From positions 1 to 20,560 of IMG/VR virus record IMGVR_UViG_3300025411_000745: a DNA stretch of 20,560 bases. One strand, 5' to 3'. Positions 8,279 to 20,560 of the stretch are shown in pieces. This DNA is from a virus. Made by a program: the position numbers and the translations under genes. The stretch's first letter is position 1. Each line of letters starts with the position of its first letter. Under the pieces are notes generated by a model, which worked only from the letters and a program-made list of their open reading frames with translations, was not told the DNA's origin and did not search any database.

Positions 8279-8845
8279 TTAGGCTTCCTGTACGTATGTA
8301 TGAATCTCTCCACCGGAGTAAATGTCGTGCTTTATGGCCGCTTCTATGGCTTTATATACAGCTTTCTCTGCTGCTTCGGGGGATTTGAGCTTCTGGTAGT
8401 TTAAAATCTCTAAAGCACCTAGCGCGATGTCCCCACCACTACCAGAATAGTAAACATTGCGAGCTTCACGATCCCAAGAGTAATCTTCAAAGATCGGATA
8501 GATTACGCCGCGTATAGCCACAATAAGGCTTGAGTCATGCCCAGCAGCAGAACCATCATCCTTACCTTCATACCCAGCATCTTGAAAAGCTTTACGTAGG
8601 GAAGGAATGAACTTAGTAGTCATAAAAACATCTAGATCTTCATTAGCGCGAGGTTTTGGAGCTTTCCATCCAAATTGTGCGATATTTCCACCGCGGGATG
8701 CTCCAGAGACGGCAATAAGCGCTCCGTTATTTTCTACGATCTTATGAGTAGCAAGATCCATGTAACGGCCGCCTTCATCGGATGCACGTGAGTCACATCC
8801 TATTACGGACCATCCATCACCTTGAATTGCGGCAAGCGTTGTCAT
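8279..8845 (-). CDS. Proteasome-beta/HslV-like Ntn-hydrolase protease
   Basis: The 188-aa protein begins M-TTLAAI, so removal of Met exposes Thr as the N-terminal nucleophile, as in HslV. Other core features follow: GCDSRAS with Asp18 (Asp17 in mature numbering), THKI with Lys35 near the position of the catalytic Lys33, and SGSGGDIALGALE at about 134-146, the Gly-Ser-Gly-Gly motif. The C-terminal DIYSGGEIHTYV resembles HslV's end. Length matches HslV or bacterial beta subunits. GAGAGGG precedes the ATG. There is no ATPase partner next to it and no propeptide. In a late gene block it may process virion proteins or remodel host proteins; both are inference. The family call is strong, the substrate unknown. 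Confidence 0.88.
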   Translation of the reverse strand: MTTLAAIQGDGWSVIGCDSRASDEGGRYMDLATHKIVENNGALIAVSGASRGGNIAQFGWKAPKPRANEDLDVFMTTKFIPSLRKAFQDAGYEGKDDGSAAGHDSSLIVAIRGVIYPIFEDYSWDREARNVYYSGSGGDIALGALEILNYQKLKSPEAAEKAVYKAIEAAIKHDIYSGGEIHTYVQEA

Positions 8846-10197: not shown

Positions 10198-10719
10198 TTA
10201 CTTGATCTTGATGACCTTTGGCTGCAATTCAGCGGGTAGCTCTTGTTCTAATGTGATTCTTAGCAATCCATCCTTAAGCTCTGCTCCCTTGACTACTACA
10301 TACTCCGCTAATACGAAGTCCTGCTTGAAGTCACGGGTAGCGATTCCCTTATGGATAGCGACCTCCTCAGATGCCTCTAAACGGCCTTCTACGGTCAACT
10401 GGAGCTCTTTTACAGTGATGGTAATGTCATCCTTACCAAAACCAGCTACAGCTAGCTCTAGGACGTATGTATCCTTATCTTTGTAGATGTTGTATGGAGG
10501 ATACCCGCCAGTTTTAGCACCAGTAGAGACTTGTTTGAACATCTCTAGTAGTGGATCGAATCCGATAGCCCAACGATTGAATTGAGGAAAGAGGCTTGTG
10601 ATTGTGATTTCAGGAACTGCCGTATTTCCAGGCTTGTAAGGCTTGTCAAATGGGCTTGGATACCGGTCTGAATACGGATCTCTATGTGGATGCCCGCTAT
10701 TTGTATATGGTGATGCCAT
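10198..10719 (-). CDS. IbpA-like small heat-shock protein (Hsp20)
   Basis: A 173-aa holdase-type chaperone. Residues 1-45 are a Pro/Tyr/His-rich extension not usual in IbpA. Then RWAIGFDPLLEMF (49-61) matches the IbpA motif RSAIGFDRL. The alpha-crystallin domain spans about 72-162: YPPYNIYK, LELAVAGFGKDDITI, LTVEGR, then GIATRDFKQDFVLAEYVVVKGAELKDGLLRI. The C-terminal VIKI is the I-x-I type oligomerisation tail. AAGGAG precedes the ATG, and a clear promoter lies upstream. Phage hsp20 genes are known, for example in cyanophages, and often sit near virion genes, where they may protect or help assemble capsid proteins. It is the promoter-proximal gene of the leftward block. Confidence 0.93.
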   Translation of the reverse strand: MASPYTNSGHPHRDPYSDRYPSPFDKPYKPGNTAVPEITITSLFPQFNRWAIGFDPLLEMFKQVSTGAKTGGYPPYNIYKDKDTYVLELAVAGFGKDDITITVKELQLTVEGRLEASEEVAIHKGIATRDFKQDFVLAEYVVVKGAELKDGLLRITLEQELPAELQPKVIKIK

Positions 10720-10810: not shown

Positions 10811-10823
10811 CGTACTTACGCTA

Positions 10824-10880
10824 ATTATGATCATAGTTCCCCCATTTCCCGCCCATTTTTCACCAAACTATGATCAGAAT
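10824..10880. repeat. Inverted repeat in the divergent control region
   Basis: ATTATGATCATAGTT (10824-10838) and AACTATGATCAGAAT (10866-10880) are inverted copies with 14 of 15 matches, separated by 27 bases. Each contains the palindrome TGATCA. This is the form of a paired operator for a dimeric regulator, placed just upstream of the hsp20 -35. Confidence 0.6.
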
Positions 10881-11035
10881 CACACATTTGGGATAAATCG
10901 GACATAGATCTCCCCGCTACCCGGGCCACTGTCTACTCCACCAAAGTCCCAACCCTTCGTGTGCTCTGCTGGACAAACGGGATAAAAGGGATTTAAGGGT
11001 GGGGGAGGGTAAAAGCGACAAATACAATAAGAGTA

Positions 11036-11217
11036 CGGACAGCCCGAAGGAATAGGGAGAGAACCCTGCTACCTAGCAGATAGTATCGCCCTAAGTGGAT
11101 AGGCAAACCTCTCTGTGTAGCCCGTAGCCCTAGCCCTTTAGGGGTAGTGCGTCATAGCACACTAGGGCACGGGTAATACCCCCACGACTATCTGTCGTGG
11201 TACTGAAAGGTAGTAAA
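11036..11217 (+). promoter_or_regulatory. Switch-like structured 5' leader RNA
   Basis: About 180 nt before the 174-aa gene can fold extensively. CTGCT/AGCAG (11066-11079) is one hairpin. A three-way junction is closed by CCCG and GCCCTAG (11121-11133) pairing with CTAGGGC and CGGG (11162-11173), with arms CCC/GGG and GTGC/GCAC. A perfect 7-bp hairpin CCACGAC/GTCGTGG (11182-11200) abuts the ribosome site GAAAGG (11205-11210). CAGATAGT (11077-11084) is also complementary to ACTATCTG (11187-11194) in the last hairpin, allowing an alternative fold or loop contact. No known riboswitch class recognised. Confidence 0.6.
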
Positions 11218-11742
11218 ATGTCTACAAAGACACTTACTCTCGCAACCGCGAAAGCGGTTATTTCACACACAGAGGATACTGAGTACTCCATCACGGCCTT
11301 CATTGGCTTGTTTGCTGGTGGCGTTGCTCTCTCCTCTATCTACACAGGTGGCAAGTACAAGCGTGCCATCAATGCTTCCCGCGTGTTTGGCGGCTATCTC
11401 TCAGGTGCTCTGAAGATAGACCCTTCCGATTGGGAAGACCTTCAGCAGACTTTCTTCAAGAATCCTGAAGGCTGTGCTGCTGTCATCGCTACCGGCGGTG
11501 ATGTTCTTGCGGGTCTTAACAACCTCAAGAAGAAGGTTGATGCTGCTGCTGCCGATAATGTGGCAGAACGCCGTGCCAACGGCAAAGCACACGCTGCTGC
11601 GCTTTCTTCTATGAAGCGTGCGCGTGAAGCCTACATCAAGGCAGGTCTTCCTGCTGATGTAGAAGGTCTTGAGAAGGAGATTGAGTCACTAATCTCCCTT
11701 CTTGAGGAAGTACGGGCTAATACAGAGAAGGTAGCCGCCTAA
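11218..11742 (+). CDS. 174-aa protein of unknown function, first gene of the rightward block
   Basis: The start is ATG 11218 with GAAAGG seven bases upstream; a GTG in frame at 11197 lies inside the leader hairpin and is rejected. Residues 20-45 contain a mildly hydrophobic stretch (ITAFIGLFAGGVALSSIYTGG). Residues 100-174 are Ala/Lys/Glu-rich and probably a long coiled coil (NLKKKVDAAAADNVAERR, EIESLISLLEEVRANTEK). Its codons favour C- and G-ended forms more than neighbours, which may reflect strong expression. A terminator-like hairpin follows 18 bases after the stop. The long structured leader suggests tight control. No homology recognised. Confidence 0.85.
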   Translation: MSTKTLTLATAKAVISHTEDTEYSITAFIGLFAGGVALSSIYTGGKYKRAINASRVFGGYLSGALKIDPSDWEDLQQTFFKNPEGCAAVIATGGDVLAGLNNLKKKVDAAAADNVAERRANGKAHAAALSSMKRAREAYIKAGLPADVEGLEKEIESLISLLEEVRANTEKVAA

Positions 11743-11760
11743 TCTGTGCCCGTAGTGGGG

Positions 11761-11782
11761 GAGCCAGAGGAAACTCTGGCTC
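11761..11782 (+). terminator. Terminator-like hairpin with GAAA tetraloop
   Basis: GAGCCAGAG and CTCTGGCTC form a perfect 9-bp stem around GAAA. The following TCTTGCT is only weakly T-rich, so it may be a 3'-stabilising hairpin rather than a full terminator. Confidence 0.65.
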
Positions 11783-11788
11783 TCTTGC

Positions 11789-11813
11789 TATGTGCATAGA
11801 TACTATGTACATA
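11789..11813. repeat. Two TATGTRCATA palindromes
   Basis: TATGTGCATA (11789-11798) and TATGTACATA (11804-11813) are two near-palindromes 15 bases apart in a promoter-like gap. They may be operator sites; no protein partner is identified. Confidence 0.35.
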
Positions 11814-12782: not shown

Positions 12783-12800
12783 TTTAGAAAGGAATCCCTT

Positions 12801-13055
12801 ATGTCTGATCTGTTTGATGGGACACAACTTTGTGCCCAGACTGACCCCGAAGTATTCTTCCCTATGAATAACTTTCACAGGAAGGCTGACTTTGCCTTTG
12901 CTGTATCTATCTGTAAGCAATGTCCCCTTATGGTGGCTTGCTTAGAGTACGCCAATAAGCAGAACGGCTCCTATGGTGTATGGGGTGGGCAGTGGTTTGA
13001 TGGATCCGGCTATGTTTCCCCCGCTGTTGTAGAAAGGAAGGAGGTAGCAGCATAA
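12801..13055 (+). CDS. WhiB-family iron-sulfur transcription regulator
   Basis: The 84-aa protein starts at ATG 12801, with AAGGA seven bases upstream; an in-frame GTG at 12711 is rejected as it reads through the leader hairpin. It has all WhiB hallmarks: Cys11 (LCAQTDPEVFFP), then Cys38-x2-Cys41-x5-Cys47 (ICKQCPLMVACLEYA), which bind a 4Fe-4S cluster, and the turn YGVWGG at 58-63. A short basic end follows. WhiB proteins are confined to Actinobacteria and their phages. They act with the primary sigma factor; mycobacteriophage TM4 WhiB is known to interfere with a host WhiB and block superinfection. A similar host-takeover role here is inference. Confidence 0.95.
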   Translation: MSDLFDGTQLCAQTDPEVFFPMNNFHRKADFAFAVSICKQCPLMVACLEYANKQNGSYGVWGGQWFDGSGYVSPAVVERKEVAA

Positions 13056-14613: not shown

Positions 14614-14804
14614 CTGAGCATGACGTTAAACTGCTTACGCCCTCGTAGTTCAATGGATAGAACATCATCGTCCTAAGGTGAGTGTTGCTGGTTCAATTCC
14701 AGCCGAGGGCACGCTAGAAAGACACGGAGATGGGATGACTTTCAGTCAGAAAACCTCCCTCGTCTACGCTAGAAAAGCTGAGCATCTTTATTAAAACTGC
14801 TCAC
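14614..14804 (+). repeat. Duplicated hairpin leader ahead of each RNA
   Basis: CTGAGCAT...TTAAA-CTGCTTACG (14614-14639) and CTGAGCAT...TTAAAACTGCTCAC (14778-14804) are diverged copies. Each folds as a 5-6 bp hairpin and each lies a few bases before an RNA: the tRNA, and the stem-closed RNA at 14808. Confidence 0.5.
14639..14711 (+). tRNA. tRNA-Arg (anticodon CCT)
   Basis: A complete 73-nt cloverleaf: acceptor GCCCTCG/CGAGGGC with discriminator A; D arm GTTC-AATGGATA-GAAC; anticodon stem TCATC/GGTGA with loop GTCCTAA, anticodon CCT reading AGG; variable loop GTGTT; T arm GCTGG-TTCAATT-CCAGC. No CCA is encoded. It would supplement a rare Arg codon for phage translation. Confidence 0.95.
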
Positions 14805-18260: not shown

Positions 18261-19667
18261 ATGGAGATAGCAGTATTCACCGAGTCTTACGAACCTATGA
18301 TGGGTGCTAAGCGACGTCAAGTCCTTATGGCTCCATATGAGGGCGGAGTTAAGATCTGGTCTCGATTGACCGATGGTAGTAAAGGCCCACATAACAAGTG
18401 GGAAGAAACTAACCTCGATAGCTTCGAGAGCATGATTGAAGCTGATGAGCGATTGACACGGACCCCTGTTGGTGTATATGTTACGGCAGCAGATGAGAAG
18501 GCAATCGCAGACAAAGGCTATTCTCCTGTATTAGGTACCAAGGCATGCAACCAGCATACCAAGGCAGAACCTACTACAGATACCACGCCGTTCTTAGACA
18601 AGCTCTACGAACTTCACGACCAAATACTAATTGGAGATGATGCATTGGATACATTCGTAATCGATAATCGACGTCAGTCCGGTTCTACTGTTCCGTTGGT
18701 AGTTCCCGTACCAACACAAACAATGGACAGCACATCAAACATCACGCATACTGAAGGCGGTAAGGTGTTCAACGTGAGGCTGGCAACAGTCCCACGCAAG
18801 GCACTAGCCGATCGTTATGTACATCGCAAGATCTGGGGTCAAGAAGACTTTGCAGTCTATGACCACGCTCGCAAGCAAGGTACAAACGTTCTTATCTACG
18901 GCCCTACCGGTCCTGGTAAGACCACATCAGTTGAGGCGTGGTGTGCCGCACGTGACCTACGTATGGCAACCATCTCAGGTAACGCATCTATGGAACCAAG
19001 CCAGATGACCGGTAAGTTCGTCTCTGATGGCGAAGGTGCATTCATGTGGATCGACGGTCCAGTTACCGATGTGGTTCGTAATGGTGGTGTCCTCTTGCTT
19101 GATGAGGTTAACTTCATCAATCCTAAGATCTACACCAATCTGTATGCATTGACCGATGGTCGTCGCAGCATTACTTTGCTCGATCATCATGGCGAGACAA
19201 TTGAGGCTCATCCAGACCTCACTATCTTCGCTACTATGAATCCAGATTACATCGGCACCACACCGCTCAACTTCGCATTCCGTAACCGTTTCGACATCCA
19301 GATCCCATGGGATTACGATGACGCGGTTGAGGAGAAGCTGATCAGCTGTAAGTCTTTGCGTGTCTTGATGAAGCAACTTCGCATCGAGGCTGGCAAGGGT
19401 CAGTATGAGACACCAATCTCTACTAACATGGGTATGGAGTTCATCGATCTCGTAGGCTCACTTGGCTATGAGTTTGCATCCGAGAACTTCATCGCTCACT
19501 TCAGTGCAGATGAGCAAGCCAGCGTGCGTATGGTATTCCAGACTCACGAATACAATCTTAAGTCAGACCTTGGTCTTGAGGTAGAGATTGTAACTGAACA
19601 TCAGGCTGAAGCAAGCCTTGATGAACGTGTCGCTCAGTGGGCGGCTCAAATTCCGGCTAGCGTATAA
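18261..19667 (+). CDS. MoxR/CobS-like AAA+ ATPase
   Basis: The 468-aa protein has a non-conserved N-terminal part (1-180) and an AAA+ core. Walker A is GPTGPGKTT (214-222), Walker B is VLLLDE (277-282) followed by VNF, sensor 1 is in FATMNPDY (Asn327), and NRF (342-344) supplies a likely arginine finger. The order and the LLLDEVN and FATMNP motifs fit the MoxR/CbbQ/CobS clade, which remodels or loads metals into partner proteins and usually works with a VWA-domain partner. GAAAGG precedes the ATG. The next gene, AAGGAGG-spaced, encodes an HExxH protein that is the natural partner. CobS-like ATPases are known in T4-like and cyanophages, with unsettled roles. Confidence 0.92.
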   Translation: MEIAVFTESYEPMMGAKRRQVLMAPYEGGVKIWSRLTDGSKGPHNKWEETNLDSFESMIEADERLTRTPVGVYVTAADEKAIADKGYSPVLGTKACNQHTKAEPTTDTTPFLDKLYELHDQILIGDDALDTFVIDNRRQSGSTVPLVVPVPTQTMDSTSNITHTEGGKVFNVRLATVPRKALADRYVHRKIWGQEDFAVYDHARKQGTNVLIYGPTGPGKTTSVEAWCAARDLRMATISGNASMEPSQMTGKFVSDGEGAFMWIDGPVTDVVRNGGVLLLDEVNFINPKIYTNLYALTDGRRSITLLDHHGETIEAHPDLTIFATMNPDYIGTTPLNFAFRNRFDIQIPWDYDDAVEEKLISCKSLRVLMKQLRIEAGKGQYETPISTNMGMEFIDLVGSLGYEFASENFIAHFSADEQASVRMVFQTHEYNLKSDLGLEVEIVTEHQAEASLDERVAQWAAQIPASV

Positions 19668-19676
19668 GGAGGCTCA

Positions 19677-20560
19677 ATGCTTATAGACGAGATCGATAAT
19701 AGCCCGTGGGGTCAAGAGGCACGGAGTGAGGATGATCAAGAACGTATCATCCAACTTGGTGCCTTGTGTCGTGTGTATGAGCAAGCGGACCGTGTACTAA
19801 CTGGCGATCCGCTTATCGTCAACGTAATGCCTGATGGCCCTGCACCCGCATGGTCTGACGGTGCTGCAATCTATATCAATCAGCAAGAGATTACTGATAT
19901 GGATCTGGAGACGTTGACACAGGTCACCGGCCTCAACTATCACGAGCTTGCGCATCACTTCTATACTCCTCGTAAGGGTACAGAGTTGATCAAGTGGGTG
20001 TTGGAAAACAAATACATGCAAGCAACAAATATCTTGGAGGACCAACGCATCGAGACATTGCTCGTTGCTAGGTATCCATCTGTAGCGCCGTATCTAATCG
20101 GTACGGTGGCTAGGTGGTTGGGTGAGTCACCGGAAGAGGTAGCAGGTACCTATCCGTTGATTCGTGGTCGTAGGTATCTTCCAGTAGAAATTAGGGAAGC
20201 ATATCGTGACGAGTTCGCATTCCCCGACCTCATACCCAACATCATCGACATCGTGGATCAGTATCGTGTACTTGCATTCCCTAGGGATTATGCTAAGGCT
20301 CGAGTTCTTATCCAACGGTTCCAAGATGAGGTACTGACTCCAATGGGTATGCCAGATATATCTGGTGGCCCCAATGGTTGCGGTAGTCGTGACCCAATGG
20401 TTAAAGGTCGTCCTGAGCCTGGCAAGATGCAGGAGAAAGATAGCCAACGTGCTGGTGGCATGGGCAAGCAAGAGAGTCCGTATACTGGCAAGCCTAAAGC
20501 TGCGCCCAACACAAACACGTCACAGCCAGGTCAAGGTGACAAACCACAGCAACATGTGGA
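19677..20560 (+). CDS. Metallopeptidase-like (HExxH) partner of the AAA+ ATPase, 3' end off window
   Basis: ATG 19677 has AAGGAGG five bases upstream and lies nine bases after the ATPase stop. The 294 visible codons stay open to the edge. The zinc motif is NYHELAHHF (His89, Glu90, His93), followed about 28 residues later by NILEDQRIE, where Glu121 is a plausible third ligand. A long helical region and a Gln/Gly/Pro/Lys-rich linker (from about 225) follow. This resembles the putative metallopeptidase-VWA proteins (PF13203/CobT type) that pair with MoxR or CobS ATPases; the VWA domain would lie beyond the edge. Target unknown. Confidence 0.85.
   Translation, partial: MLIDEIDNSPWGQEARSEDDQERIIQLGALCRVYEQADRVLTGDPLIVNVMPDGPAPAWSDGAAIYINQQEITDMDLETLTQVTGLNYHELAHHFYTPRKGTELIKWVLENKYMQATNILEDQRIETLLVARYPSVAPYLIGTVARWLGESPEEVAGTYPLIRGRRYLPVEIREAYRDEFAFPDLIPNIIDIVDQYRVLAFPRDYAKARVLIQRFQDEVLTPMGMPDISGGPNGCGSRDPMVKGRPEPGKMQEKDSQRAGGMGKQESPYTGKPKAAPNTNTSQPGQGDKPQQHV

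Follow-up and report, generated by a model that had tools for sequence, protein, structure and literature searches.

A conserved mRNA leader with a possible tRNA-like core ahead of a gene without known relatives in uncultured actinophages

The region 11036-11217, which sits between a divergent hsp20 gene and the gene for a 174-aa protein (gene 1) in a 20.6-kb virus record (hereafter the window, meaning the whole stretch of 20,560 nucleotides that was analysed), is a real conserved RNA structure under selection. The conserved structure, the 12-bp length and T-loop of a hairpin found in its relatives, and the location were established by computation. With confidence just short of even, we propose that the leader is a cis-acting tRNA mimic that governs translation of gene 1 and is read by a tRNA-reading factor, possibly via RNase P. 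The comparison suggests that a tRNA-handling factor would read a phage message; this function is putative, and the fold appears eroded in the window.

Folding of 11036-11230 gave -74.6 kcal/mol, with a z of -3.85 relative to shuffled sequence, and the junction alone (11117-11181) gave a z of -3.5 (Table 1). A preliminary description of the window had reported a three-way junction and a perfect hairpin at the ribosome site, within a structured, regulatory-looking leader of no known class. The junction was recovered with P1 at 11121-11125/11169-11173, a stem at 11127-11133/11162-11168 and arms at 11134-11144 and 11147-11160; the hairpin was recovered just 5' of the Shine-Dalgarno (SD) sequence, and the leader was without an Rfam match.

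Table 1. Positions of the leader, its parts and its neighbours in the window.
Feature	Position	Strand	Remark
hsp20	10198-10719	-	divergent neighbour of the leader
Promoter-like conserved box TTTAAGGGTGGGGGAGGG	10992-11009	+	also found ahead of the leader in each close relative
Putative -10 element TACAAT	11023-11028	+	by eye; TAnnAT at the same place in several relatives
P0, 5' hairpin CGG/CCG	11036-11046	+	one two-sided change in clade A
Early domain: Pm (UAGGG/CCCUA) around hairpin 11066-11079	11053-11093	+	one two-sided change in Pm
CAGATAGT, switch segment of the preliminary description	11077-11084	+	pairs with 11187-11194 in the window
CCUCUC, possible anti-SD segment	11108-11113	+	predicted pairing with the SD region
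P1 and three-way junction	11121-11173	+	proposed diverged tRNA-like domain
GGG-UAAUA-CCC, possible alternative to the P1 3' strand	11171-11181	+	pairs in 6 of 6 aligned leaders
P3 hairpin, conserved loop CUAUCUG	11182-11200	+	three two-sided pairs; z -4.6
SD sequence GAAAGG	11205-11210	+	sequence; 7 bases 5' of ATG
Gene 1, 174-aa helical protein, family without known relatives	11218-11742	+	
Strong 58-nt near-perfect hairpin, terminator-like	11743-11800	+	z -8.75; directly after gene 1
WhiB gene	12792-13052		

In six close relatives (L001, L002, L003, L005, L007 and L009), a homologous leader likewise precedes a homolog of gene 1. Covariation in the window's clade (clade A) was evaluated on six well-aligning leaders, the window included. 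The main fold had 95.6% of cells paired and 6 two-sided pairs, located in P0, Pm, P2a and P3, and neither the number of pairs nor the covariation score was reached by any of 500 shuffles. P2a carries one two-sided change and the remainder of 11121-11173 is invariant in clade A. As P1, the 7-bp stem and P2b do not vary in the six aligned leaders, covariation has no bearing on them there, and GGG-UAAUA-CCC, also invariant, is outside its reach. Counterparts of P0 in other clades were identified by eye, as was P3 outside clade A. At 11058-11088, in the early domain, the facing strands GAGAA and AGUAUCG resemble a sarcin-ricin (bulged-G) motif.

The preliminary description had further claimed a two-state switch in which CAGATAGT leaves the early domain and pairs with ACTATCTG inside the last hairpin. 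The complementarity itself holds, being perfect over 8 nt (11077-11084 with 11187-11194) and equalled by 1% of early-segment shuffles (uncorrected), while a conserved switch was not confirmed. In one register 81% of cells pair over the six homologs, with 0 two-sided changes in the switch pairing compared with 6 in the main fold, so that covariation in both alternatives was not borne out, and the 3' column of the pairing never varies in the six aligned leaders. Complementarity in the same register extends over 10 nt in L005, 8 in L002, 7 in L007 and 6 in L001 and L003, a pattern due mostly to the invariance of both GUAUCG and ACUAUCUG. Mutually exclusive pairing via CAGATAGT is possible, without visible selection. 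A metabolite riboswitch or attenuator using this pairing as its switch is highly improbable: although the window and L005 both have the pairing and the junction core is near-invariant in clade A, the alternative pairing lacks covariation, L009 retains P1, P2 and P3 but has no early domain, the junction sequence is not kept across clades as a ligand pocket would be, and no Rfam match was obtained. What stands of the switch-like interpretation is the structured leader; the named switch does not, and the relatives suggest a tRNA-like domain rather than a metabolite pocket.

For the wider family, hsp20 and HslV-like proteins were used as bait together with an iterated gene 1 profile. A total of 38 distinct leaders were extracted from actinophage contigs of IMG/VR, and most of these leaders have a common layout of a TAAGGGTGGGG-type box, a strongly folded leader, an SD sequence and gene 1. 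The leaders were grouped by eye into the window's clade (A), B (L160, L153, L161), C (L159, L168, L155, L167, L144, L170), D (L150, L158, L149, L184, L186), E (L039, L182, L034, L037, L043, L169, L051, L033) and F (L125, L139), with the remaining leaders as singles. Clade C contained 4 two-sided pairs, and its covariation score was reached by none of 500 shuffles. A covariance model of group C found the leaders of B, L031, L157 and L032 just 5' of gene 1 at E-values between 4e-4 and 1.2; in 1.5 Mb it matched only one further site (E 0.86), E-values of such RNA models being rough. A second covariance model recovered the same leaders more strongly, which is partly circular because most of them were included in the model. 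The models had no matches in clades A, E and F and only L186 in clade D (E 5.8), and the membership of A, D, E and F therefore relies on gene homology, position and layout. Scans of the window and the distant leaders against Rfam 15 gave no family at the gathering cut-off, and the only fitting match was tRNA in L159 at 15.8 bits compared with a gathering value of 29. Among isolate phages, neither DNA nor protein searches recovered anything related to the leader or to gene 1, and genome contigs yielded no gene 1 relative. A degenerate core pattern run against IMG/VR gave chance matches only and no new relatives, and L018, an unrelated contig matched by the box pattern, was rejected. Four motif matches were obtained in Bacteroidota/Nitrospira MAGs; the second model gave one of them an E-value of 0.011, though this match had been selected for the motif.

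A hairpin of exactly 12 bp closed by a tRNA T-loop (UUCRANU/UGCRACU) was found in 11 of the 38 leaders, namely three of B, five of C, L157, L031 and L032. No T-loop leader had a stem of 9, 10, 11 or 13 bp; in L155 the 3' strand comprises 12 nt and the 5' side has a single bulge. T-loop hairpins elsewhere in the 2.45 Mb searched, on both strands, did not exceed 8 bp, and the best stem was 12 bp in 1.2% of shuffled leaders. Stem sequences differ widely between lineages, and length is therefore kept while sequence turns over, although the 12-bp leaders are related and do not represent eleven independent events. In tRNA, the acceptor stem (7) and T stem (5) together make 12 pairs. An apical T-loop was present in 15 of the 38 leaders. 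A T-loop arm of 6-7 bp was found in L125, L139, L041 and probably L033, in which the arm and a second 6-bp stem, judged by eye, sum to 12 around a GG-containing loop; some leaders thus appear to make 12 as 6+6 around a D-loop-like GG loop. Group D has 12-13 bp and larger apical loops, and clade E has mostly GNRA/UUCG tetraloops on stems mostly longer than 12 bp. Group C also carries AGAA-AGUAGGUAA-UUCU, which the Rfam tRNA model, below threshold, aligned in L159 as the D-arm, with the T-arm also aligned. The 3' flank of the stem is mostly R-C-G or A-C-U (RC(G/U)) rather than RCCA.

The window itself has a junction in the corresponding place. In CCCGU-A-GCCCUAG ... CUAGGGC-ACGGG an acceptor-like 7-bp stem lies above P1, with the arm at 11134-11144 in the D position and that at 11147-11160 in the T position. 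The 3' strand of the junction, GCACACUAGGGC, is 12 nt long, the stem itself being only 7 bp plus an arm, and the loop in the window is GUCAUA, which is not a T-loop. The flanks of the window recur in L041 (CCCGUAGCC ... GGCACGGGU), where a true T-loop occupies this place, making L041 the best bridge so far between the window and the T-loop leaders; none of the covariance models links group A to those leaders directly. We infer that the three-way junction of the window, which looks like a diverged, eroded version of the T-loop hairpin domain, is homologous to it.

Another pairing concerns the ribosome site. In the window, a 22-nt stretch just 5' of P1 that includes CCUCUC pairs with the SD region with an ensemble probability of 0.41, compared with 0.05 after shuffling of the stretch (p 0.049), and CUCUCU could pair with GGAGAG upstream instead. 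This competition is, in the window, somewhat better supported than the named switch. Of 36 leaders, 14 (the window, L003, group B, four of C, three of D, L157 and L032) had more pairing between the segment 5' of P1 and the SD region than their shuffles at p<=0.1. This pairing was absent in clades E and F; over all leaders it was not significant (Wilcoxon p 0.12), and a rank test of anti-SD windows was weak. That this pairing is not universal fits a purely structural leader without any switch, whose role would be to make the mRNA more stable or to ensure high expression through an accessible ribosome site, as do the very stable folds of all 38 leaders, the great sequence freedom and the replacement of the loop by GNRA/UUCG tetraloops in clade E. 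Stability by itself would not call for features as specific as the fixed 12 bp and T-loop seen in B, C, L157, L031 and L032, and we consider a purely structural leader unlikely.

Gene 1 is the first gene after the leader, and its product is predicted to be helical (pLDDT 86). No RNA-binding fold or family was recognised in it, and structure comparison of the model gave no result. The family is fast-evolving, with 13-20% identity to the window copy outside the window's clade. A strong hairpin follows the gene 1 stop in every relative with enough sequence to test. The main rival explanation is autogenous control, in which abundant gene 1 product would bind its own leader and block the ribosome, the tRNA-like domain serving only as a stable scaffold. 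The leader occurs exclusively ahead of gene 1, with which it diverges in parallel over the clades, the unit comprises a single gene with a terminator-like hairpin, and the protein has no assigned function. Autogenous control is nevertheless an unlikely explanation in our judgement, as gene 1 has no known RNA-binding character and the exact 12-bp stem and T-loop would be left unexplained.

In the proposed tRNA-mimic mechanism the unit would consist of its own promoter-like box, the leader, the gene 1 coding sequence and the terminator-like hairpin. The leader core would mimic the acceptor/T-arm half of tRNA, in many relatives as the 12-bp stem with T-loop, which in some relatives is preceded by a GG-containing D-like loop. 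The reader of the domain would most likely be host RNase P and, next, a tRNA-binding protein of the phage or the host. Since the segment just 5' of the domain may pair with the SD region in several lineages, including that of the window, a cut by RNase P at the 5' base of the stem, between the anti-SD segment and the ribosome site, would free the latter. In the window's clade, with its three-way junction and changed T-loop, recognition may be altered or lost, and because the 3' flank is partly paired in P1, RNase P should be hindered. The missing RCCA, the P1-paired flank and clades E and F all count against cutting by RNase P. In its specific form, that of a phage mRNA family with a 12-bp T-loop tRNA mimic bound or cut by RNase P or a tRNA-measuring factor so as to free the ribosome site, the proposal is doubtful.

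Bacterial RNase P RNA efficiently processes hairpins that consist of an acceptor stem, a T stem and a T-loop, and the phage RNAs C4, M3 and T4 gene 32 are among the known substrates of RNase P (PMC11143913); the D-loop is dispensable (PMC4919913). The leaders share the acceptor, T stem and T-loop hairpin with these minimal substrates, and phage RNAs are precedented (PMC11143913), but here the hairpin is in the conserved 5' leader of one gene family, lacks the RCCA end, and its cleavage is putative. The T-box riboswitch is a leader RNA with T-loops that measures tRNA length (PMC4919913); it binds tRNA, whereas the phage leader resembles tRNA itself. Rfam scans of the window and distant leaders gave no T-box match. 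The tRNA-like domain of tmRNA has an acceptor and T-arm with a D-loop and is without an anticodon arm, a plan that the leader follows without a tag frame or CCA end. No tmRNA was detected in the window, where ARAGORN called only a tRNA-Arg (CCU) gene (14639-14712) and Rfam gave no tmRNA match. The E. coli thrS operator is a tRNA-mimicking mRNA leader by the ribosome site that mimics anticodon arms for its synthetase; the leader here mimics the acceptor/T-arm half instead, and gene 1 shows no likeness to a synthetase. The YrlA Y RNAs of bacteria are stand-alone RNAs tied to Rsr/Ro60 that, like the leader, contain a tRNA-like module. An independent trans-acting RNA of Y-RNA-like or tRNA-derived type, ending by chance at the gene 1 ribosome site, would account for the tRNA-like features and the near-invariant clade A core. 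It is very improbable, however, as there is no U-tract terminator between RNA and gene, the leader is always directly 5' of the same gene, and YrlA had no match in Rfam; no Rsr/Ro60-type partner was recognised among the window proteins scanned. Mimicry of tRNA is well known at plant virus genome ends and in tmRNA, while neither the RNA family library nor the literature searched yielded a natural mRNA leader that copies the acceptor/T-arm half at a fixed 12 bp.

The TAAGGGTGGGG-type box lies ahead of the leader in most of the 38 loci, and TTTAAGGGTGGGGGAGGG showed no match to the sigma-70 consensus. We infer a promoter, with the putative -10 element, and a transcription start near 11035. In the divergent intergenic region, TATGATCATAG-type palindromes at 10820-10880 are kept in relatives and may be an operator. 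An HslV/proteasome-like peptidase gene lies at 8279-8845 (-), with its best isolate match in Actinomycetia phage DSL-LC01 (38.6%), an isolate with a gene order that differs from that of the window. At 18261-20558, a CobS/MoxR-type AAA ATPase gene is followed by an ORF with HELAHH, which is metallopeptidase-like. The WhiB gene of the window indicates an actinobacterial host, and phages with this leader are thought to infect lake actinobacteria.

The leader also points to a gene that is widely conserved among lake phages and uncharacterised. Control of translation by the mimic, if real, would tie a phage gene to tRNA processing, and if the tRNA-mimic reading is true, uncultured freshwater actinophages would use gene control by the tRNA-processing machinery.
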